From: Cellulomonas biazotea
GTDB taxonomy: Bacteria > Actinomycetota > Actinomycetes > Actinomycetales > Cellulomonadaceae
NCBI RefSeq assembly: GCF_004306155.1
Contig: NZ_BIMR01000012.1
Location: forward strand, 1-45,834
Length of the DNA: 45,834 bases
Direction of reading: 5' to 3'
The position numbers and the translations under genes are program-made. Under the pieces are notes generated by a model. The model saw only the letters and a program-made list of their open reading frames with translations, ran no database searches and was not told the DNA's origin. This document shows positions 5,641 through 45,366 of the stretch, piece by piece (position 1 is the first letter of the stretch; each line of letters begins with the position of its first letter).

Positions 5641-6213
5641 ATGGCACGCACGCTGCCCAAGTACACCGTCCCGTCGCTCACCCCCCAGGAGGGGGCGAAG
5701 ATCGCCGAGATCCTGCAGCGGCGACTCGACGCGCTCAACGACCTGGCGCTGACCCTCAAGCACGTCCACTGGAACGTCGTGGGGCCGCACTTCATCGCGG
5801 TGCACGAGATGCTCGACCCGCAGGTCGACGCCGTGCGCCTCATGGTCGACGCGATCGCCGAGCGCATCGCGACCCTGGGCGTCGCCCCCGTCGGCACGCC
5901 CGGCGCGCTCGTCGCCGCGCGCACGTGGGACGACTACTCGATCGGCCGGGACACCGCGATCGCGCACCTGGGCGCGCTCGACGAGGTCTACGTCGGCGTG
6001 ATCACCTCGCACCGCGAGGCGGCCGCGGAGACCGAGGAGCTCGACACCGTCACGAACGACCTGCTCGTCGGGCACCTGCACGAGCTCGAGCTGTTCCACT
6101 GGTTCGTCCGCGCGCACCTCGAGTCGGCCGGCGGTGCGCTCAGCACGGCGTCGGCGGACGGCGAGAAGGCCGCCGCGGACAAGGCCCGCGCGAAGGGCAA
6201 GGCATCGGCGTGA
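5641..6213 (+). CDS. dps: Dps-family DNA-binding ferritin-like protein
   Basis: This 190-residue protein has the Dps four-helix fold. The intersubunit ferroxidase residues are visible in LKHVHWNVVGPHFIAVHEMLDPQVD and the following DAIAERIATLG. Dps dodecamers oxidise and store iron using peroxide and can coat DNA. The ATG at 5641 follows a strong AAGGAGGAG site at 5626. The C-terminal tail is rich in Lys and Ala (GEKAAADKARAKGKASA) and could bind DNA. The stop overlaps the GTG of the next gene. Stress protection by Dps fits the neighbouring repair cluster, but no shared regulator is visible. Confidence 0.93.
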   Translation: MARTLPKYTVPSLTPQEGAKIAEILQRRLDALNDLALTLKHVHWNVVGPHFIAVHEMLDPQVDAVRLMVDAIAERIATLGVAPVGTPGALVAARTWDDYSIGRDTAIAHLGALDEVYVGVITSHREAAAETEELDTVTNDLLVGHLHELELFHWFVRAHLESAGGALSTASADGEKAAADKARAKGKASA

Positions 6214-7379
6214 CCCCCCGCACGGAGCACCGGGCGGACGACCGCGCGGTGCTCCGTGCGGCACGTCCGGGCACCCGCCCCACCGGCTCGTCCCAGCCGC
6301 CCAGCCCGTCCCGCCGCCTGCACGTCGCGGGGCGCCTGGAGGACGCGTTCGACCGGGCGCTCGTGTCGGTGCTGCGTCGGCAGGGGTGGACGGTGCGCAT
6401 CGAGCCCTTCGCGGGCTACGGCGCGCCCGGCTGGGTGCGTGTGATGGCGCGGACCCTGCTCGCCGGGCCGTCGGTCCGGGGAGCGGACCTGCCCGCCGCG
6501 GGTGGCGACGCGCAGGTCGACGCCGGCAGCACCGACGCGGTCCGGGGCTGGCGCAGCTTCGCGACCGCCCAGGTCGCCGGTGCCGAGCTGCGCGTGCAGG
6601 TCGGAGACGTCGAGCACCGCGTCGTGACGGACCGCGGCGGGTACCTCGACGTCCTGCTCGAGTCCGACCTGCCTCCCGGGTGGCACCGACTGCGCGTCAC
6701 GACCGCCGACGGGGCGCAGGCGCACGCGCCGGTGCTCGTCGTCGACCCGGCCGTCCGCGTGGGACTGGTGAGCGACATCGACGACACCGTCATGGTCACG
6801 CGCCTGCCGCGTCCCCTGGTCGCGGCGTGGAACGTGCTGGTGCGGCACGAGAACGCCCGCGAGCCCGTGCCCGGGATGTCGGACCTCTACGCCGAGCTCG
6901 GCCGCCGTAACCCCGGCATGCCGGTCGTCTACCTCTCCACCGGCGCCTGGAACGCCGCCCCCGCGATCGCCCGGTTCCTCCGCCGGAACCGGTATCCCGC
7001 GGGCCCGCTGCTGCTCACCGACTGGGGGCCGACCAACTCGGGCTGGTTCCGCAGCGGCCGCGCGCACAAGGTCGCGCAGCTGCGCCGGCTGGTGCGCGAG
7101 CTGCCCGACGTGCAGTGGATCCTCGTGGGCGACGACGGGCAGCGCGACCCGGAGATCTACGCAGGCGCCGTGCAGCACCATCCCGAGCACGTGCGGGCGG
7201 TCCTGATCCGCCAGCTCACGTTCAGCGAGCACGTCCTGGCGCACGGCCTGCCCGCGCCGACGCCCGAGTCGCGGTCCGCCGAGCGCGCGACCGTGCGCGA
7301 GGGCATCCCGGTGCTGCAGGGGGCCGACGGGCACGCCCTGCTGGAGTCGCTGGGGCCGGACGACCTGCGCTCCACCTGA
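6210..7379 (+). CDS. App1-family (DUF2183) phosphatase domain protein
   Basis: This 389-residue protein carries a C-terminal App1/DUF2183 domain, a HAD-like phosphatase. VGLVSDIDDTVMVT supplies the nucleophile DxDDT motif, and YLSTGAWN, LLTDWGPTNSGWFRSG, HKVAQLRRL and WILVGDDGQRDPEIY are the later family motifs. Yeast App1 dephosphorylates phosphatidate; bacterial substrates are unknown. About 170 N-terminal residues include a beta-rich domain (VAGAELRVQVGDVEHRVVTDRGGYLDVLL). No signal peptide is seen. The GTG at 6210 overlaps the Dps stop; an internal start is possible because the first 40 residues are low-complexity. Confidence 0.8.
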   Translation: MTPRTEHRADDRAVLRAARPGTRPTGSSQPPSPSRRLHVAGRLEDAFDRALVSVLRRQGWTVRIEPFAGYGAPGWVRVMARTLLAGPSVRGADLPAAGGDAQVDAGSTDAVRGWRSFATAQVAGAELRVQVGDVEHRVVTDRGGYLDVLLESDLPPGWHRLRVTTADGAQAHAPVLVVDPAVRVGLVSDIDDTVMVTRLPRPLVAAWNVLVRHENAREPVPGMSDLYAELGRRNPGMPVVYLSTGAWNAAPAIARFLRRNRYPAGPLLLTDWGPTNSGWFRSGRAHKVAQLRRLVRELPDVQWILVGDDGQRDPEIYAGAVQHHPEHVRAVLIRQLTFSEHVLAHGLPAPTPESRSAERATVREGIPVLQGADGHALLESLGPDDLRST

Positions 7380-35993: not shown

Positions 35994-36081
35994 TTTCGGG
36001 TCGGCGGGGTCGGCGAAGACGGACGCTCGTCTAGCCTCGACTTGCCGGTGCACCGCCGGCACGTCCTCGGTGGGCGCCGAA

Positions 36082-36226
36082 CCCTGCCGACCCCGAGGCC
36101 GCACATCGAGCACGAGAGGCAGGGACGGGGGACCCAGGAGTGCGGGCACCACGGTGCCCTCGGGGTGAAGCCACGATGTGGCCGGGAGACTTCCGCCCGA
36201 ACCCGACAGCTAACCTCGCAGGCGTT
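36082..36226 (+). ncRNA. ydaO/yuaA-type c-di-AMP riboswitch
   Basis: The leader holds a CCCTGCC/GGCAGGG hairpin, GGGGTGAAGCC (36162 onward) and CCGCCCGAACCCGACAGC-TAACCTCGCAGGCG (36193-36224). These are conserved core elements of actinobacterial ydaO riboswitches as I know them. It ends about 15 bp before the start of an NlpC/P60 cell-wall hydrolase gene, the classical target. Binding of c-di-AMP normally turns such genes off. The exact 5' edge is uncertain. Confidence 0.82.
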
Positions 36227-36240
36227 CGGGAGGTTCTTCT

Positions 36241-37026
36241 ATGCCCGCTCGCTCCGCGAGTTCCCGCCACCGCGCGGCCCGTCGTCCACGCACGGCCCTC
36301 GACGACCTGGTGATCCGTTCCACCGACAGCATGAACGAAGCCGGTCGACGCTCCGTCGCCGTCGCTGCCGCCTCCGGCCTCGCCCTCGGGCTCGCTGCCG
36401 CACCGACGTACGCCAACCACCCGCGCGAGTCTGCCCAGTCGATCGGCGGAGTTGACACGGACGCCGCCACGGCGGCCGCCCGCGCCCTCATCGGTGCGCG
36501 GGTCGTCACGGCGCCGGCTGAGGCGACGTGGACGTTCGACGCTCCCGTCGTCACCGCGGTCGCCCCACCTCCGGCCCCGGCTCCGGCCGAGACCCGGGCG
36601 ACGGCGTCCAGCCGTTCCCAGGAGCGCCGCGCCACCACCCCCGCCGCTGCACCGGCGGCCGTGGCCCCTGCCGTGGAGGTGCCGGCGAGCGCGTCCGGGA
36701 GTGCGGTGGTCGAGATCGCGATGCGGTACATCGGCGTGCCGTACGTGTCGGGCGGCACGACTCCCGCTGGCTTCGACTGCTCGGGTTTCACGTCGTACGT
36801 CTACGCGCAGGTCGGCATCAACCTCCCGCGGACGTCGAGCCAGCAGCGCTACGCAGGGACGGTCGTGTCCCGTGCCGACGCGCAGCCGGGCGACCTGATC
36901 TGGTCCCCGGGGCACGTCGCGATCTACGCGGGCGGCGACATGCAGGTGGACTCCCCGCGTCCTGGCAAGACAATCCAGCTGCGCGAGATCTGGCAGTCCA
37001 GCCCCACCTTCATCCGCCTGGGCTGA
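36241..37026 (+). CDS. Secreted NlpC/P60 peptidoglycan hydrolase
   Basis: This 261-residue protein has a long basic lead-in, a hydrophobic export segment (about 40-57, SVAVAAASGLALGLAAAPTYA), a Pro/Ala linker and a C-terminal NlpC/P60 domain (about 160-261): VEIAMRYIGVPYVSGGTTPAGFDCSGFTSYVYAQVGINLPRTSSQQ, with the catalytic Cys in DCSGFT, and PGHVAIYAGGDMQVDSPRPG, with the catalytic His. It cleaves stem-peptide bonds. GGGAGG precedes the ATG at 36241. Control by the c-di-AMP riboswitch just upstream fits resuscitation or cell-wall remodelling enzymes. A terminator follows. Confidence 0.93.
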   Translation: MPARSASSRHRAARRPRTALDDLVIRSTDSMNEAGRRSVAVAAASGLALGLAAAPTYANHPRESAQSIGGVDTDAATAAARALIGARVVTAPAEATWTFDAPVVTAVAPPPAPAPAETRATASSRSQERRATTPAAAPAAVAPAVEVPASASGSAVVEIAMRYIGVPYVSGGTTPAGFDCSGFTSYVYAQVGINLPRTSSQQRYAGTVVSRADAQPGDLIWSPGHVAIYAGGDMQVDSPRPGKTIQLREIWQSSPTFIRLG

Positions 37027-37142: not shown

Positions 37143-37763
37143 CTAGATGTCGCTCAGCAGGTTCGTCATCTCCGTGATCTCGGCCGTCTGCGCGTCGATG
37201 ATCGTGCGGGCGAGCGCGAGCGCGTCGGCGTTCTCGCCGTCCTCGAGCTGCTGCTCGGACATCTCGATGGCGCCCTTGTGGTGCTCGATCATGAGCTCGA
37301 GGAAGCGCCGGTCGAAGTCCGCTCCGGACAGGGCTTCGAGGTCCGCCATCGCGCCCTCCTGGTCCATGCCGTCCATGTCCATGCCGCCATGGTCCATGCC
37401 GCCGTGCCCCATCTCGTCCGGACCCGGCTCGCCCCACGTCTCGAGCCACCCGGTCATCTGCTCGATCTCGGGTCCCTGGGCGGCAGAGATCCGCTCCCCG
37501 AGGGCGACGACCTCAGGTCGTTCGCCGCGTTCGACGGCGAGCTCCGCCATCTCGATCGCGCCCTCGTGGTGGACGATCATCATCTGCGCGAACTGGGCGT
37601 CGGCGTCGTTGTGCCCCTCGGTCTGGGAGGTCTCGGCGGTGGTCGGCGACTCGCCGGCGCCGGTGCCTTCGGAGGCGTCGCCGCCGGAGCATGCGGCGAG
37701 CGTGAGGGCAAGGGTCGTGGCGGCCGCTGCGGCTACCAGGCGGCGGCGTGCGGTCGTGGTCAT
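37143..37763 (-). CDS. DUF305 lipoprotein with Met/His-rich insert
   Basis: This 206-residue protein has a lipobox TLAAC (Cys25) and a DUF305 four-helix domain with two HHEGAIEM/HHKGAIEM repeats (His65-His66 and His161-His162). Between the two halves (about 117-139) lies a Met/His-rich stretch, MGHGGMDHGGMDMDGM. The family is frequent in copper-resistance loci, and such Met/His clusters bind Cu(I)/Cu(II). It probably binds copper outside the membrane. The ATG at 37763 has AGGAGA. It lies 41 bp downstream of the Cys-rich peptide gene, at the end of the thiol/metal operon. Confidence 0.92.
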   Translation of the reverse strand: MTTTARRRLVAAAAATTLALTLAACSGGDASEGTGAGESPTTAETSQTEGHNDADAQFAQMMIVHHEGAIEMAELAVERGERPEVVALGERISAAQGPEIEQMTGWLETWGEPGPDEMGHGGMDHGGMDMDGMDQEGAMADLEALSGADFDRRFLELMIEHHKGAIEMSEQQLEDGENADALALARTIIDAQTAEITEMTNLLSDI

Positions 37764-37804: not shown

Positions 37805-37927
37805 CTAGGCGGCAGGCGTCTGCGAACAGCATCCGCTCGCGGCGGGTTCGGTCGAGCTGCAGCACTGCTGAGGCTCGGTGGTGGTGCTCTCCGGTTCGGT
37901 GACGTCGTTCTGCTGGCAGCAGGACAT
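37805..37927 (-). CDS. 40-residue peptide with three Cys-Cys pairs
   Basis: I do not recognise a named family. The gene has an excellent AAAGGAGAAG ribosome site 4-5 nt before ATG 37927 and encodes 40 residues. Cys pairs fall at positions 3-4 (MSCCQQ), 22-23 (QQCCSS) and 33-34 (GCCSQ), joined by acidic Thr/Glu/Pro spacers that repeat the theme TEPQQCC / STEP. It has no signal peptide or hydrophobic stretch, so it should be cytoplasmic, and it has six thiols for soft-metal or disulfide chemistry. It lies between the redoxin gene (38 bp) and the DUF305 gene on the same strand, which points to copper or mercury handling. It could be a metallothionein-like buffer or a carrier. Confidence 0.78.
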   Translation of the reverse strand: MSCCQQNDVTEPESTTTEPQQCCSSTEPAASGCCSQTPAA

Positions 37928-37964
37928 GCGCTTCTCCTTTATGGTGGTGGTGGATCGGAACGGG

Positions 37965-38591
37965 TCAGAGGTGGCGTCGGACCTCGGTGAGCAGGTCGTC
38001 GGGCGCGAGCCACATCGACGGGTAGTCGCCCTGCCACACCTGCTGGCCCTCGGCGTCGACGAGGACGAAGCCGTGCCCCGGAAGGCCCTCGTGCATGCCG
38101 GTGCCGAGCGTGCCGTACGCCTCGGAGACGGTGCCGTCGTCGAGGAGGAACGGTGACTCCACTCCTAGACGCTCGCGGTCGGCGTTGATCTGGTCGGCCG
38201 TGTTCATGACGATCGGCAGGACGGTGATCCCGGCCTCGGCGAAGTCGGCGTCCTTCTCGATCTCGGCCATCTGCTGCAGGCACGAGTCGCAGCCGGCCCC
38301 TTCGTTGAAGTAGAGGACCACGGGCTCGCCACGGTAGTCGGCCAGCGACACCTCGGAGCCGTCGGACGTGGGCAGCGTGAAGGGCGGTGCCGCACGGACC
38401 TCGCTCGAGGCCGTCGGTCGGGATGACAGCAGCCCGGCGGTGACCAGGACACCGACCACGACGGCACCCACGCCCCACAGCACCCAGGTCCGCAGCCTCG
38501 CGCGTCGTTCGGCCCGCTGCTCTGCCGCACGGGCTCGCGCAGCTGCGAGCTCGCGCTCCTCACGCCGTCGTGCGGCGGTTCCGGACGTCAT
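37965..38591 (-). CDS. Membrane-anchored thioredoxin-fold redoxin
   Basis: This 208-residue protein has a charged cytoplasmic N terminus (RRREERELAAARARAAEQRAERRARLR, likely helical), one membrane segment (about 35-56) and an extracytoplasmic AhpC/TSA-like redoxin domain. The redox motif is Cys101-Asp-Ser-Cys104 in VVLYFNEGAGCDSCLQQM, followed by GLPGHGFVLVDAEGQQVWQGDYP. It could reduce disulfides or metal-thiolates outside the cell membrane using electrons from the CcdA protein encoded just upstream, with which its start overlaps (ATGA). Compare ResA/TlpA and CcdA pairs in cytochrome c maturation; no cytochrome genes are nearby. Confidence 0.9.
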   Translation of the reverse strand: MTSGTAARRREERELAAARARAAEQRAERRARLRTWVLWGVGAVVVGVLVTAGLLSSRPTASSEVRAAPPFTLPTSDGSEVSLADYRGEPVVLYFNEGAGCDSCLQQMAEIEKDADFAEAGITVLPIVMNTADQINADRERLGVESPFLLDDGTVSEAYGTLGTGMHEGLPGHGFVLVDAEGQQVWQGDYPSMWLAPDDLLTEVRRHL

Positions 38592-39577
38592 CGTGTGGTC
38601 CCTTCCGTCGTAGGTGCCGCCGACTCATGGCAGGTCGGCTCGTGCGGGACGGTGTCCGCGTCGTGAGCCGTGAACCGCTCCGCCTCGAGGGTCGCGCCAC
38701 CCGCGCTCGAGGTCCGGGCACGGCGGCCCACCAACGCGCCCCAGACGAACGCCCCGGCGAGCGCGAGGAGCCCGATGCCCAGCACGACCTCGGGGACGGG
38801 AGCCAGCCAGCTCTGCACGGCGCCGAACGTCCGCGTCAGGACACGGCTGGCGGCGTCCTGTGCCGACGTCCCACCGGTCATGTCCTCGCTCGCGGCGAGC
38901 GCGATGACGAGCAGCCCCATGATCGCGAAGGCGATCGCCACGGCGACGTTGATCGTGTTCGTCACGAGCGTGAACCGGCCAGCGTGCAGCCGGACGACCC
39001 GCGCACGCAGCAGCCGCCGCTCCCCCAGCCGCGCGCGGTCCCACAGGAGCGCCATGACGAAGAGCGGGAACACCATCCCGAAGACGTACGCGAGGCCGAG
39101 AGCGAACCCACCGGCCAACGACCCGGAGAGGGCGGACAGCGTCATGACGCCCGCGAGGACCGGCGCGCAGCACGAGGAGGCGATGCCCGAGAAGACGCCC
39201 AGGGCGAAGAAGCTGGCCGTGTCCCCCCGTGCGGTGTCGGGTGCCCGGACGAACGACGGCAACGACCACATGCGCCCGGACAAGGCGAGCGCCGCCAGCG
39301 CCAGCATGAGCACTCCCCCGGCCCAGTACAACGGCGCGTGGTAGCGCGCGATCGCTCCGGCGAGCGCGCTCACGCCCAGCGTGATCGGCACGAGCACCGC
39401 AGCGAGCCCGGCGGCGAAGACGAACGTCAGCGGCAGCAGGCGCCAGCGAGCGTTCTTGACCGCCCCCGCGAGGTAGGACGGTGCGAGGAAAACGATGCAG
39501 CACGGCGCGAAGAGCGCGACGCCGCCGGCGAAGAACGCGGCCAGGATGCTGCCGGTCGCGAGGAGCTCCGTACCCAT
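38588..39577 (-). CDS. CcdA/DsbD-type transmembrane thiol reductant transporter
   Basis: This 329-residue membrane protein has about seven to eight helices. Cys26-Cys27 (LFAPCCIVFLAPSY) and Cys136-Cys137 (GIASSCCAPVLAGVM) sit at the membrane places where CcdA carries its redox Cys pair, each time as an unusual vicinal CC rather than a lone Cys. The C-terminal tail is cytoplasmic and contains a late Cys-His (PTCHESAAP). CcdA moves electrons from cytoplasmic thioredoxin to extracytoplasmic thiol proteins. Its start touches the stop of the glutaredoxin-like gene and its end overlaps the redoxin start, giving a tightly coupled three-gene chain. A mercury or copper importer is a weaker alternative. 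Confidence 0.88.
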   Translation of the reverse strand: MGTELLATGSILAAFFAGGVALFAPCCIVFLAPSYLAGAVKNARWRLLPLTFVFAAGLAAVLVPITLGVSALAGAIARYHAPLYWAGGVLMLALAALALSGRMWSLPSFVRAPDTARGDTASFFALGVFSGIASSCCAPVLAGVMTLSALSGSLAGGFALGLAYVFGMVFPLFVMALLWDRARLGERRLLRARVVRLHAGRFTLVTNTINVAVAIAFAIMGLLVIALAASEDMTGGTSAQDAASRVLTRTFGAVQSWLAPVPEVVLGIGLLALAGAFVWGALVGRRARTSSAGGATLEAERFTAHDADTVPHEPTCHESAAPTTEGTTR

Positions 39578-39873
39578 CAGGCCTGTGCCCTTTTCAGCGC
39601 GTGGGGGCGTGCGGTGAGCGTGCGCTCCAGCTTTCGGCGGGGCAGCCGCCCGGCGGAGAAGTACACGCCGTCGACCAGGACGAGAGGCGCGAGCGGCGGC
39701 CGGTGCCGTGCCACGAGCTCGCGGCCCGCGTCGGACTCGGCCTGGACAGTGTCGACGACGATCGGATGGTCCTTCGCCAGCTCGGCGAGCACAGCCTTCG
39801 CGTCGTCGCACAGGTGGCACGCCTGCGCCTGGACGACGGTGATCCGTACGGGTGGACGGACGTGGACCGGCAC
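39577..39873 (-). CDS. Glutaredoxin-like protein
   Basis: This 98-residue protein has the DUF836-type glutaredoxin fold: VRITVVQAQACHLCDDAKAVLAELAKDHPIVVDTVQAESDAGRELVARHRPPLAPLVLVDGVYFSAGRLPRRKLERTL. The Cys19-His-Leu-Cys22 motif is at the start of the first helix and the cis-Pro region is APLVLVDG. It should be a cytoplasmic dithiol oxidoreductase and is the first gene of the glutaredoxin-CcdA-redoxin unit. The GTG at 39873 has GGAGG-type sequence upstream. The 124-bp gap to the divergent response-regulator gene holds a phased direct repeat. Confidence 0.88.
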   Translation of the reverse strand: MPVHVRPPVRITVVQAQACHLCDDAKAVLAELAKDHPIVVDTVQAESDAGRELVARHRPPLAPLVLVDGVYFSAGRLPRRKLERTLTARPHALKRAQA

Positions 39874-39959: not shown

Positions 39960-39997
39960 TCCCGGGACACCGCGCGTCAGTCCCGGAAGATGGAGCC

Positions 39998-40726
39998 ATG
40001 ACACCCGCACCCGCACCCGCACCGGTCGCCGCGCGACGAGCCGTCGTCGTCGACGACGAGGTTGCGCTGGCTAGGCTCGTCGGTGGGTACCTCGAGCGCG
40101 AGGGGTTCGAGGTGACGCTCTGCCACGACGGCGCCCAGGCTGTGGAGGTCGCCCGCGAGGTCGACCCCGACATCGTGATCCTCGACCTCGGTCTTCCTGG
40201 CGTCGACGGCGTCGAGGTGTGCCGGAAGATGCGTACCTTCTCCGACTGCTACGTGCTCATGCTCACCGCGCGAGCTGAGGAGGTGGACACGCTCATCGGG
40301 TTGTCCGTCGGTGCCGACGACTACGTCACGAAGCCTTTCAGCCCGCGCGAGCTCATGGCGCGCGTGAACGTGCTGCTGCGTCGTCCGCGGCAGTCCAGCG
40401 CCCCCCCTCCGCCTGCACCGCCTGCGCTGCAGGTCGGTCCCCTCAGGGTCGACGTCGACGCCCGCGAGACGCACCTGGACGGTCGCCGGATCGACCTGAC
40501 ACGGACCGAGTTCGACATCCTGACCGCGCTCGCGTCGCGTCCAAGCATCGTGTTGTCGCGACGAGCGCTGATCGACGCCGTGTGGGGTCCGGGGTGGGTC
40601 GGCGACGACCACCTCGTCGACGTGCACGTCCTCCACGTGCGGCAGAAGCTTGGCGACACCGCCAAGGAGCAGCGCTTCGTCCGCACGGTCCGCGGCGTCG
40701 GGTACCGGATAGGCACCGGCGAGTGA
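39998..40726 (+). CDS. OmpR-family response regulator
   Basis: This 242-residue protein has a receiver domain (about 14-125) with acidic pocket DDE, phospho-acceptor Asp63 (VILDLGLPG), MLTARAEE and the Lys in DDYVTKPF. A winged-helix DNA-binding domain (about 145-238) carries LTRTEFDILTALAS, GDDHLVDVHVLHVRQKLGD and FVRTVRGVGYRIG. OmpR-type regulators bind direct repeats about 10-11 bp apart, which fits the repeats found nearby. Its stop overlaps the sensor kinase start (GTGA). The setting resembles CopRS/CusRS systems, so copper or thiol stress is the likely signal (inference). Confidence 0.95.
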   Translation: MTPAPAPAPVAARRAVVVDDEVALARLVGGYLEREGFEVTLCHDGAQAVEVAREVDPDIVILDLGLPGVDGVEVCRKMRTFSDCYVLMLTARAEEVDTLIGLSVGADDYVTKPFSPRELMARVNVLLRRPRQSSAPPPPAPPALQVGPLRVDVDARETHLDGRRIDLTRTEFDILTALASRPSIVLSRRALIDAVWGPGWVGDDHLVDVHVLHVRQKLGDTAKEQRFVRTVRGVGYRIGTGE

Positions 40727-41829
40727 CGTCATCCACGCGCCGGTTCGGCCTGGCGTCACGGCTCCTGGTCGCGATCGCGATCGTGCTGGCGACCGCGGCC
40801 GCCACGGCATGGGTCGTCGTCGCGGCGGTAGGACCAGCGGTGTTCCACGAGCACCTCACGCGGGCAGGTATCTCCGACCACGCGATGGCGGACATGCACG
40901 TCGAGGAGGCTTTCAGGTCGGCCACCACGGTGGCCTCCGCCATCGCCCTCGTCGCCGCGGGCGTGGCGGCGGCGGCGGTGAGCCTGGTCCTGACCCGACG
41001 GATCGGCGGGTCCCTGTCAGCGGTGTCGACCGCCGCTACCTCACTCGGTGCCGGGCACTACGACGTGCGCGTCCCGTCGCCCGGCCTCGGCGCCGAGTTC
41101 GACGACCTCTCCGAGTCCTTCAACCGGCTCGCCGACCGGCTCGAGGAGGCGCAGCGGCTCCGAGGACGGCTTCTCGCGGACCTCGCGCACGAAGTCCGGA
41201 CGCCGGTCGCCACCATCAAGGGCTACCTCGAAGCGGTCGAGGATGGCGTCCAGCCGCTCGACCAGACCACCATTGCCGTCCTGCAGGAACAGGCCGACCG
41301 CCTGACCCGGCTGGCCGCCGACCTCGCCGCGGTCACACACGCCGAGGCGGGCGACGTCATCCTCGACGCCACGCCGACACAGCCCGGTGAGCTCGTCGAC
41401 GCCGCCGTGAACGCTGCGCAGGAACGCGCGCTCGCCCGGGGCGTCGCCCTCAGAGGAATCGCCGAGCCCGGCCTCGCAGCCGTACTCGCTGACCGTCACC
41501 GCATGTCGCAGGTGATGGACAACCTCGTCACCAATGCGCTGCGCCACACGCCGAGCGGTGGCGAGATCGTCGTCCGAGCCGAACGCGAGGGTGACGGCAT
41601 CCGCCTCGTCGTGACCGACACAGGCGCGGGTATCCCACCTGAGCATCTCGCGCACGTCTTCGACCGCTTCTACCGCGTCGGGACCGCACGAGACCGTGCG
41701 AGTGGTGGTTCAGGCATCGGCCTGGCCATCAGCAAGGCGCTCGTCGAGGCCCATGGCGGCTCCATCCGCGCGGCGAGCGCGGGAACCGATCGCGGTGCCA
41801 CGTTCACCGTGACCCTGCCGGCGGCCTGA
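40723..41829 (+). CDS. Sensor histidine kinase with His/Met-rich sensor loop
   Basis: This 368-residue kinase has two membrane helices (about 12-36 and 68-90) around a 30-residue extracytoplasmic loop containing His42, His44, His53, Met55, Met58 and His59 (FHEHL, DHAMADMH). HAMP, HisKA with His156 (LADLAHEVRTPVATIKG) and an HATPase domain (NLVTNALRHTP, DTGAGIPPEHL, GGSGIGLAISKALVEAHGG) follow. Such a short loop rich in His and Met is well suited to copper or silver sensing, though the ligand is inferred. It pairs with the OmpR-type regulator through overlapping codons. Confidence 0.94.
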   Translation: MTSSTRRFGLASRLLVAIAIVLATAAATAWVVVAAVGPAVFHEHLTRAGISDHAMADMHVEEAFRSATTVASAIALVAAGVAAAAVSLVLTRRIGGSLSAVSTAATSLGAGHYDVRVPSPGLGAEFDDLSESFNRLADRLEEAQRLRGRLLADLAHEVRTPVATIKGYLEAVEDGVQPLDQTTIAVLQEQADRLTRLAADLAAVTHAEAGDVILDATPTQPGELVDAAVNAAQERALARGVALRGIAEPGLAAVLADRHRMSQVMDNLVTNALRHTPSGGEIVVRAEREGDGIRLVVTDTGAGIPPEHLAHVFDRFYRVGTARDRASGGSGIGLAISKALVEAHGGSIRAASAGTDRGATFTVTLPAA

Positions 41830-42903: not shown

Positions 42904-45366
42904 ATGGATCACCAGACGGCCGTCCTCGAGGTCGGAGGGCTCCACTGGGCGACGTCGGCAGGATCGGTCGAGCGGGCGCTGTCGCGCCGGCCCGGCGTGA
43001 TCGCGGTCGACGCTAACGCTGCGGCACAGACCGCCAGCGTGACCTTCGACCCGAGGCGTACCTCCGTGCCGCAGCTCACCGACTGGGTGCGCGAGTGCGG
43101 CTACCACTGCCGAGGTGAGTCCGTGCCGGAGCACGTGTGCGAGCCGATGTCGAGCGCCAGGGCGCCCCTCGAGGGCGTGACCGGAACGACGTCCGACCAG
43201 CAGCACCCTGCGGAGCACGGATCGACTGTGACGGAGCTCGGCCACGGGCACGGCCACGGTGCGCAGGTGATGCCGTCGCCGCATGACGCCATGGGGCACG
43301 GCGGTCACCACGGGGGCGGCTCCATCGCCGACATGGCGCGGGACATGCGCAACCGTTTTCTCGTCGCACTCGTGCTGTCGGTCCCGATCACGCTGTGGTC
43401 ACCGATCGGCCGGGAGCTGATCGGGTTCACGGCACCCGCCCCGTTCGGGCTTCGCGACGACGTCTTCGCGCTGCTCCTGTCCCTGCCGGTCATCTTCTAC
43501 TCCGCGTGGATCTTCTTCGACGGCGCCTACCGGGCCCTGCGTGCACGCGCGCTGGACATGATGGTGCTGGTTGCCGTCGGCGTCGGGACCGGCTGGCTCT
43601 ACAGCCTCGGCGTGACGCTGACCGGTGGCGGGGAGGTCTTCTACGAGGCTGCGAGCGTGCTGGCCACCTTCGTCCTGCTGGGTCACTGGGTGGAGATGCG
43701 TGCGCGAGGCGGGGCGAACGACGCGGTCCGCACGCTGCTCGAGCTGGCGCCTGCTACCGCCGTCGTCGTCCGGGACGGCGTCGAGGTCGACGTGCCGACG
43801 AGCGACGTCCAGGTCGGGGACCTGCTGCTGATCCGGCCGGGGTCCAAGATCCCGGTCGACGGCGTGGTCGAGTCCGGCGAGTCCGAGGTGGACGAGTCGA
43901 TGGTGACCGGGGAGAGCCTGCCGGTGGCGAAGGAAGTCGGCGAAGAGCTGATCGGTGCCTCGATCAACACGACCGGCGTCATGCGCGCCCGTGCGACGAA
44001 GGTCGGGGCAGACACCGCGCTGGCTCAGGTCGTGGCCCTCGTGCAGCAGGCGCAGAACTCTAGGGCGCCCGGGCAGCGGCTGGCCGACCGGGCCGCGTCC
44101 TGGCTCGTGCTCGTAGCGCTCGCCGGCGGAGCGGCGACGTTCCTCGTGTGGATCCTGGCGGGGGCGAGCGCGCCCACGGCGATGCTCTTCGCCATCACGG
44201 TCGTCGTCATCACCTGCCCCGACGCGCTCGGCCTCGCGACACCGACCGCGATCATGGTCGGCACCGGGCTGGGCGCCAAGCGCGGCATCCTGTTCAAGAA
44301 CGCGTCCGCGCTGGAGGCCGCCGCGAGCATCGACACGGTGGTGCTCGACAAGACGGGGACTCTCACCGTCGGCCAGCCCGAGGTCACCGACGTCGTCATC
44401 GACGGCATCGACACAGAGGAGCTGCTCGCGCTCGTGCGCTCGGTCGAGCGGGAGTCGGAGCACCCCCTCGCCCGGGCCGTCGTCCGCTACGCGGAGGCCG
44501 AGGGTGCGCCCGAGGTGGCCGCGACAGGATTCGTCAACGTGCCCGGCCACGGTGCGACCGCGCAGGTCGGCGGCCGGCGCGTCGCCGTCGGGAACTACCG
44601 CCTCATGGTCGCCGAGAGCGTCACGCTCGGGTCACTCGACACGGAGCGGGACCGCCTCGCGGCGGCCGGTCGCACGGCGATCGTCGTGGCTGTCGATGGC
44701 CGGGCCGTCGCCGTCTTCGCCCTCGCCGACGCACCGCGGCCCACCGCTCCCGCAGCCGTCGCCGCGCTGCACGACGCGGGGACGCGCGTCGTGATGCTCA
44801 CGGGCGACAACGAGTCGACCGCACGGCGTATCGCAGACGAGCTCGGGATCGACACGGTCATCGCGGAGGTCCTCCCCGGCGACAAGGCGGCGAAGGTCGC
44901 CGAGCTCCAGCACGCCGGCCGCCGTGTGGCCATGGTGGGCGACGGGGTCAACGACGCGCCTGCCCTCGCGACCGCCGACCTCGGCATCGCGATCGGTGCG
45001 GGGACCGACGTGGCCATCGAGACGGCCGACGTCGTCCTCATGCGGTCCGACCCGTTGGACGTCCCGGTGGCGTTGCGCCTCGGCCGGGGCACGGTGCGCA
45101 AGATGCGGCAGAACCTCGGTTGGGCGATCGGCTACAACGCCGTCGCGCTGCCGATCGCGGCAGGGGTGTTCTACCCCTCGCTCGGCCTGTCTCTGAGCCC
45201 GGAGATCGCCGCTCTCTCCATGTCCGGCTCATCCGTCATCGTCGCGGTGAACGCCTTGCTCCTGCGGCGGCTGCGCCTTCCGGGCGCGACCGCCGAGCCG
45301 AAGGCCTCGAAGCCCGACGCCCGGGTATCGGTGGAGCCGGCATCCGCGGGGCGGGCAGAGACGTGA
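42904..45366 (+). CDS. Heavy-metal P1B-type ATPase, copper efflux type with CPD motif
   Basis: This 820-residue pump begins with an HMA-like fold in which the CxxC is gone ([16 protein letters not shown]). A His-rich segment follows ([26 protein letters not shown], CopB-like), then eight membrane helices. The A-domain has VTGES. The metal-site helix reads [15 protein letters not shown], so Cys438-Pro-Asp440 replaces CPC. The phosphorylated residue is Asp482 (DKTGTLT); [16 protein letters not shown] and [11 protein letters not shown] complete the P/N domains. It exports Cu(I), Ag(I) or a similar ion. The CsoR-type palindrome upstream and the copZ gene downstream support copper; CPD sites are less common, so specificity could differ. 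Confidence 0.92.

Follow-up and report, generated by a model that had tools for sequence, protein, structure and literature searches.

The window, i.e., the complete 45,834-nt stretch of Cellulomonas biazotea DNA analyzed here, carries on its minus strand a short open reading frame that lies within a cassette of thiol- and metal-related genes (Table 1). A sequence-only reading had described a 40-residue peptide with three vicinal cysteine pairs, a good ribosome binding site and a position between genes for a redoxin and a DUF305 lipoprotein. In full agreement with that description, translation of 37927..37805 on the minus strand places the CC pairs at residues 3-4, 22-23 and 33-34, the AAAGGAG element at 37940-37934 is followed by six bases and then the ATG, and both neighbors are borne out by protein family models (PF00578/PF08534 for the redoxin, PF03713 and NF049983 for the lipoprotein). 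The stop codon of the redoxin gene is separated from the ATG of the peptide gene by 37 nt, and 41 nt lie between the peptide stop codon and the start of copM at 37763. In the genome to which the window belongs, the peptide has one full-length match; the four further matches listed are weak, with E values from 0.19 to 1.24.

Table 1 Features of the CC-peptide locus in the window
Feature	Position	Strand	Remarks	Basis
CC-peptide ORF, stop codon included	37805..37927	(-)	MSCCQQNDVTEPESTTTEPQQCCSSTEPAASGCCSQTPAA, 40 aa	direct reading and relatives
Shine-Dalgarno sequence AAAGGAG	37934..37940	(-)	6 nt ahead of ATG	
Membrane-anchored redoxin (AhpC-TSA/Redoxin)	37965..38591	(-)	CDSC active site	PF00578/PF08534; anchor by eye
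CcdA/DsbD-like membrane protein	38588..39820	(-)	two vicinal CC pairs; actual start likely within the ORF	weak DsbD-type matches
Glutaredoxin-like protein	39577..39873 (approximate start)	(-)	CHLC	PF05768, 22.6 bits, short of the gathering threshold (26)
DUF305 lipoprotein, CopM family metallochaperone	37143..37763	(-)		PF03713; NF049983, 117.7 bits, cut-off 90
Divergent response regulator, OmpR type	39989..40726 (approximate start)	(+)		
Sensor histidine kinase	40732..41829 (approximate start)	(+)		
P1B-type heavy metal ATPase	42904..45366	(+)	CPD motif; opposite to the direction of peptide transcription	

Several of the neighboring proteins have conserved cysteines. In the best 80 of 98 named loci, the CxxC motif of the redoxin is kept in 80 of 80, and the cysteines of the glutaredoxin-like protein are kept in all 77 loci in which it could be aligned. 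The CcdA-like membrane protein encoded between them matches DsbD-type models over residues 74-260, approximately, with scores far under the cut-offs, and a Pfam search with it yielded no match. Its pairs APCC and SSCCAP are invariant where aligned (77/77 and 79/79, respectively, in the same set of loci). CcdA has single cysteines, unlike the cassette protein with its two vicinal pairs. Neither the response regulator nor the kinase of the window scored above the cut-off of any heavy-metal model. In the P1B-type ATPase, CPD replaces CPC/CPH, and the N-terminal HMA domain is devoid of CxxC. Among the 17 named loci covered for this motif, CPH occurs in 12, CPC in two and CPD in L047, L051 and L070. 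CPH is the motif of copper/silver type P1B ATPases. The ATPases of the window and of L047 exceed the cut-off of the copper-ATPase model TIGR01511, and that of the window is also above the cut-off of the Cd-family model TIGR01512. Elsewhere in the window, a c-di-AMP riboswitch (RF00379, 57.3 bits) is located at 36075-36239 (+), directly before an NlpC/P60 gene that starts at 36241.

Relatives of the peptide were collected via redoxin relatives that served as anchors. These comprised the best 80 of 98 from named genomes and 57 loci, the window included, from a family sample for which 200 genomes were sampled; the resulting count of 137 leaves out L185-L188. Small ORFs were accepted when they contained CC, at least three cysteines and few arginines, were preceded by a Shine-Dalgarno-like triplet and started at most 120 nt from the redoxin stop codon. 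Such an ORF directly follows the redoxin gene in 20 of the best 80 of 98 named loci and in 29 of the 57 sample loci, and it thus survived the check on whether frame and cysteine pairs are conserved next to the same neighbors. As many loci of the two overlapping sets belong to the same species, the 31 distinct peptides are the better measure. All 20 named relatives have a Shine-Dalgarno-like stretch ahead of the start codon, the triplet being a condition of the finder; a scan that did not require the triplet recovered 19 of them, and the remaining one, from L067, stems from another scan. When the 201-nt gap was subjected to dinucleotide shuffling, 2,752 of 20,000 shuffles contained any ATG-initiated ORF of 30-70 codons and none contained one with at least three CC pairs. 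GC content at codon positions, pooled over the 31 distinct relatives with cysteine codons excluded, amounts to 0.873 at position 3 compared with 0.658 at position 2, a difference whose p value is not to be taken literally because the pooled sequences are related. Judged by these sequence comparisons, we are dealing with a real, if small, gene.

The 31 distinct peptides consist of 38-69 amino acids, contain four to seven cysteines and, in 28 cases, lack phenylalanine, tryptophan and tyrosine. Linkers and spacings drift while the cysteines are kept: in column-wise comparison, identity is 130/130 for cysteine and 603/822 for other columns. Zero non-synonymous changes at cysteine codons were found in 22 same-length pairwise comparisons, the pairs not being independent of each other. 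In the only deep pair (L043-L170), all six cysteines are kept as opposed to 16 of 36 other residues (P 0.014). The nearest pair, formed by the window and L036, differs by three non-synonymous and no synonymous changes, such that purifying selection is not visible in that pair. As read from the alignments, the conservation pattern is that of a protein with few important residues. A class defined by the spacing CC-x17-19-CC-x8-11-CC, as it had been put forward, fails because spacing differs among the relatives, some of which have only one or two CC pairs and make use of HxC or CxC. In some relatives CC is located near the middle, and in some the HxC or CxC motif is found at the end. Two of the 31 distinct peptides, those of L067 and L150, contain six histidines each. 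The fewer cysteines a peptide has, the more histidines it tends to contain (rho -0.71 over 21 clusters, kinship uncorrected and CC a condition of the finder). Exchange of cysteine for histidine is expected for metal ligands and not for the sensing of cysteine codons. By eye, the peptides are free of signal sequences and hydrophobic stretches. AlphaFold, run on a single peptide sequence, returned no fold (mean pLDDT 53.6). The peptide is hydrophilic and signal-less, probably unfolded, and would reside in the cytosol.

Among the best 80 of 98 named loci, the peptide gene comes after the redoxin gene in 18 of the 30 from Cellulomonadaceae, in the single loci from Jonesiaceae and Beutenbergiaceae (1/1 each) and in none of the 48 others. 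The slot is empty in the remaining 12 of the 30 Cellulomonadaceae loci, which renders the peptide dispensable for the cassette. On the redoxin tree, for which L074, L078 and L081 were not counted as their sequence breaks off no more than about 170 nt from the stop codon of the redoxin gene, peptide presence requires nine changes compared with 18.6 in shuffles, and 0 of 500 shuffles were as low. At least four presence changes are forced by well-supported branches. Read from this tree, the peptide is an inherited accessory gene that has been gained or lost repeatedly. Four genomes have two cassettes each, of which just one carries the peptide (pairs L045/L062, L048/L059, L056/L071 and L063/L055). 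In L092, a comparable ORF (MSGCC...CC...CC) is located after an Lgt-like gene instead. A profile search with alignment A1 of the peptides matched 25 of 221 genomes of the family at E ≤ 0.05; 11 of the 27 rows are peptides beside the redoxin by their coordinates. In a phylum sample of 396 genomes, six gave matches at E ≤ 0.01; besides the window's own, the loci examined contained no convincing peptide. Since this search is insensitive, absence outside the family is a weak statement only. The DNA pattern GGAG-N7-ATG-N3-TGYTGY was discarded as a finder; it matched 126 of 296 genomes and its reversed control was also common. A tblastn search of plasmids with the peptide of one relative, with the low-complexity filter on, gave no match.

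The neighborhoods of loci with and without the peptide were compared by tblastn for those 68 of the 80 named loci that extend at least 2.5 kb downstream, shorter loci being left out. Within the fetched stretch, CopM is encoded in 15 of 19 peptide loci versus 20 of 49 loci without the peptide. The corresponding numbers are 11/19 versus 15/49 for the HMA ATPase and 19/19 versus 29 to 33 of 49 for the two-component pair. The next gene after the peptide varies and encodes CopM, an ATPase (L047, L051), MerA (L052), Lgt (L067, L080, L150) or an ion channel (L048). In three lineages the peptide gene is the last one before a convergent gene, which encodes an AMP-ligase-like protein in L045 (63 nt away), a multicopper oxidase in L056 (123 nt) and a BNR protein in L173 (111 nt). 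The Lgt-like prolipoprotein diacylglyceryl transferase recurs after the peptide (assigned by PF01790 for L150 and by tblastn for the others, L067 and L080 included) and perhaps serves the CopM lipoprotein. In L055, L058 and L072, the slot just after the redoxin gene is occupied by a gene for a YHS-domain protein.

Taken together, CopM, the P-type ATPases, the multicopper oxidase, the YHS protein and, once, MerA suggest that the cassette deals with soft metals, most likely copper. What favors copper is the presence of CopM and of the multicopper oxidase, together with ATPases above the TIGR01511 cut-off. The metal is not fixed, as the window ATPase also passes TIGR01512, one locus contains MerA and the two-component genes score under the heavy-metal cut-offs. 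With moderate confidence, we propose that the peptide is a lineage-restricted, cytosolic, metallothionein-like buffer for Cu(I) or another soft metal and a member of the thiol/metal cassette. It would act as the product of a small gene alongside the glutaredoxin-like protein, the CcdA-like protein, the redoxin and CopM, with the two-component system encoded divergently. Its cysteine side chains, or histidine in relatives, would bind a soft metal ion, presumably Cu(I), which, in cells exposed to metal stress, would thereby be buffered or handed on. The cysteine pairs may be held in the reduced state by the glutaredoxin-like protein of the cassette. The suggestion of a short metal or thiol carrier of a new class can be retained in its first part, with a carrier as the best reading of the cysteine/histidine replacement and the metal-related neighbors, and has to be given up as far as the class was to be defined by spacing.

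In principle, the CC pairs could also work in a metal-free manner, cycling between dithiol and disulfide as a carrier or substrate of the glutaredoxin-like protein, the CcdA-like protein and the redoxin. These three are indeed constant partners, all of them occurring in every peptide locus (19/19) that extends 2.5 kb or more downstream. However, they are equally usual where the peptide is missing (45/49, 48/49 and 49/49, respectively), histidine substitutes for cysteine in relatives, and neither the linkers nor the spacing nor the pairing is conserved, which is unusual in a redox partner. We consider a purely redox-active peptide unlikely. Mercury or another thiophilic ion in place of copper is a somewhat weaker candidate for the ligand, with the vicinal pairs serving as an Hg(II) shuttle that links CC pairs in a membrane protein with those in a reductase. 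A reductase of this kind is encoded in L052 (Cellulomonas humilata), where a mercuric reductase gene at 5655-7034 (+) lies between the peptide and a CPD ATPase; the protein scores 482.9 bits against an equivalog cut-off of 454.45 and ends with SCCA, and the CcdA-like protein with its invariant CC pairs could be the membrane component. Against this, of the 19 loci that carry the peptide and extend 2.5 kb or more downstream, only one has MerA, compared with 15 for CopM. It is likewise conceivable, if rather unlikely, that the peptide, as soluble partner, and the CC-bearing CcdA-like protein form a CC-to-CC relay of a new kind. Either reducing equivalents or Cu(I), with Hg(II) as an alternative, would be moved through the actinobacterial membrane to the anchored redoxin and CopM, with the peptide as an intrinsically disordered, exchangeable carrier.

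A cysteine-responsive leader peptide appears improbable. Ribosomes stalling at the cysteine codons would sense cysteine or charged tRNA-Cys and control the next gene, and a short ORF with pairs of cysteine codons just ahead of other genes would fit such an attenuator. The mechanism exists in actinobacteria: according to PMC9031893 and PMC9094748, the mycobacterial polycysteine short ORFs described by Canestrari et al. (2020) are leaderless and located upstream of the gene that they regulate. The peptide gene shares with these small size, contiguous cysteine codons and proximity to operon genes, but differs in being led by a Shine-Dalgarno sequence, in its internal or terminal position and in having cysteines exchangeable for histidine. 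In addition, the 226-nt RNA has no advantage in folding over shuffled versions (z +0.75, with 160 of 200 shuffles equal or better), no terminator-like site was found and no Rfam family matched at the peptide. As outlined above, the downstream gene differs among loci, and in L045, L056 and L173 there is no following gene to be controlled. All of these points, i.e., internal position, ribosome site, lack of RNA structure or terminator-like site, changing or absent downstream gene and cysteine/histidine exchange, disfavor a leader peptide. RiPP copper chelators exist and a short, cysteine-rich peptide of variable sequence might be the precursor of such a modified metallophore, which is nevertheless very improbable given that no maturation enzyme was found among the neighbors scanned (in relatives and in part of the genes of the 45.8-kb window), that a conserved leader cannot be distinguished from a variable core and that cysteines are spread from residue 3 onward. 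Finally, a non-coding or spurious ORF, to which its shortness, its dispensability and its absence from most cassettes outside Cellulomonadaceae might point, is hardly credible with frame, start, Shine-Dalgarno-like site, cysteine codons and GC bias at position 3 maintained across 31 distinct sequences.

The proposed soft-metal buffer was compared with known systems. No peptide matched above a gathering score in Pfam (five peptides submitted), none matched in NCBIfam (four peptides), and alignment A1 had no match in the PDB at E ≤ 10. The 31 distinct peptides share the metallothionein trait of being small and cysteine-rich with few or no aromatic residues. Known bacterial metallothioneins have their cysteines in motifs of the CxC/CxxC type. 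Unlike SmtA/BmtA and MymT, the window peptide features vicinal CC pairs, a lower cysteine content (15%, the low end for the class) and no match to a curated family. Like these proteins, it is small, cysteine-rich and apparently unfolded without metal. MymT of Mycobacterium tuberculosis, according to PMC7558416, is the 4.9-kDa product of a non-annotated ORF, is needed for copper resistance and has a predicted capacity of as many as six Cu(I); passages of PMC8832061 mention metallothionein in general terms only. The YHS-domain small metal proteins resemble the CC peptide in occupying the same slot after the redoxin and, unlike it, are folded domains with their own Pfam model and bear no sequence relation. 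ArsD, which is encoded in the ars operon, is larger and folded. None of the peptides submitted to Pfam and NCBIfam showed a relation to it above the cut-offs, and no ars gene was found among the neighbors scanned. What the two have in common, according to PMC4562236, are vicinal cysteine pairs, found at positions 12-13, 112-113 and 119-120 of this metallochaperone/regulator. The passages retrieved from open-access papers contained nothing on the CC-peptide family. If our proposal is right, the peptide would be metallothionein-like in the way it works; by sequence, it lies outside the known metallothionein families.

The peptides form a conserved gene family that is too short and too variable for the family libraries used and was found only by anchoring on a neighbor. 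They also draw attention to the uncharacterized CcdA-like protein with its invariant CC pairs. If Cu(I) is bound, the family would represent a second, vicinal-cysteine type of metallothionein in actinobacteria beside MymT, and its natural cysteine-to-histidine series could help to explain the metal preferences of disordered peptides.
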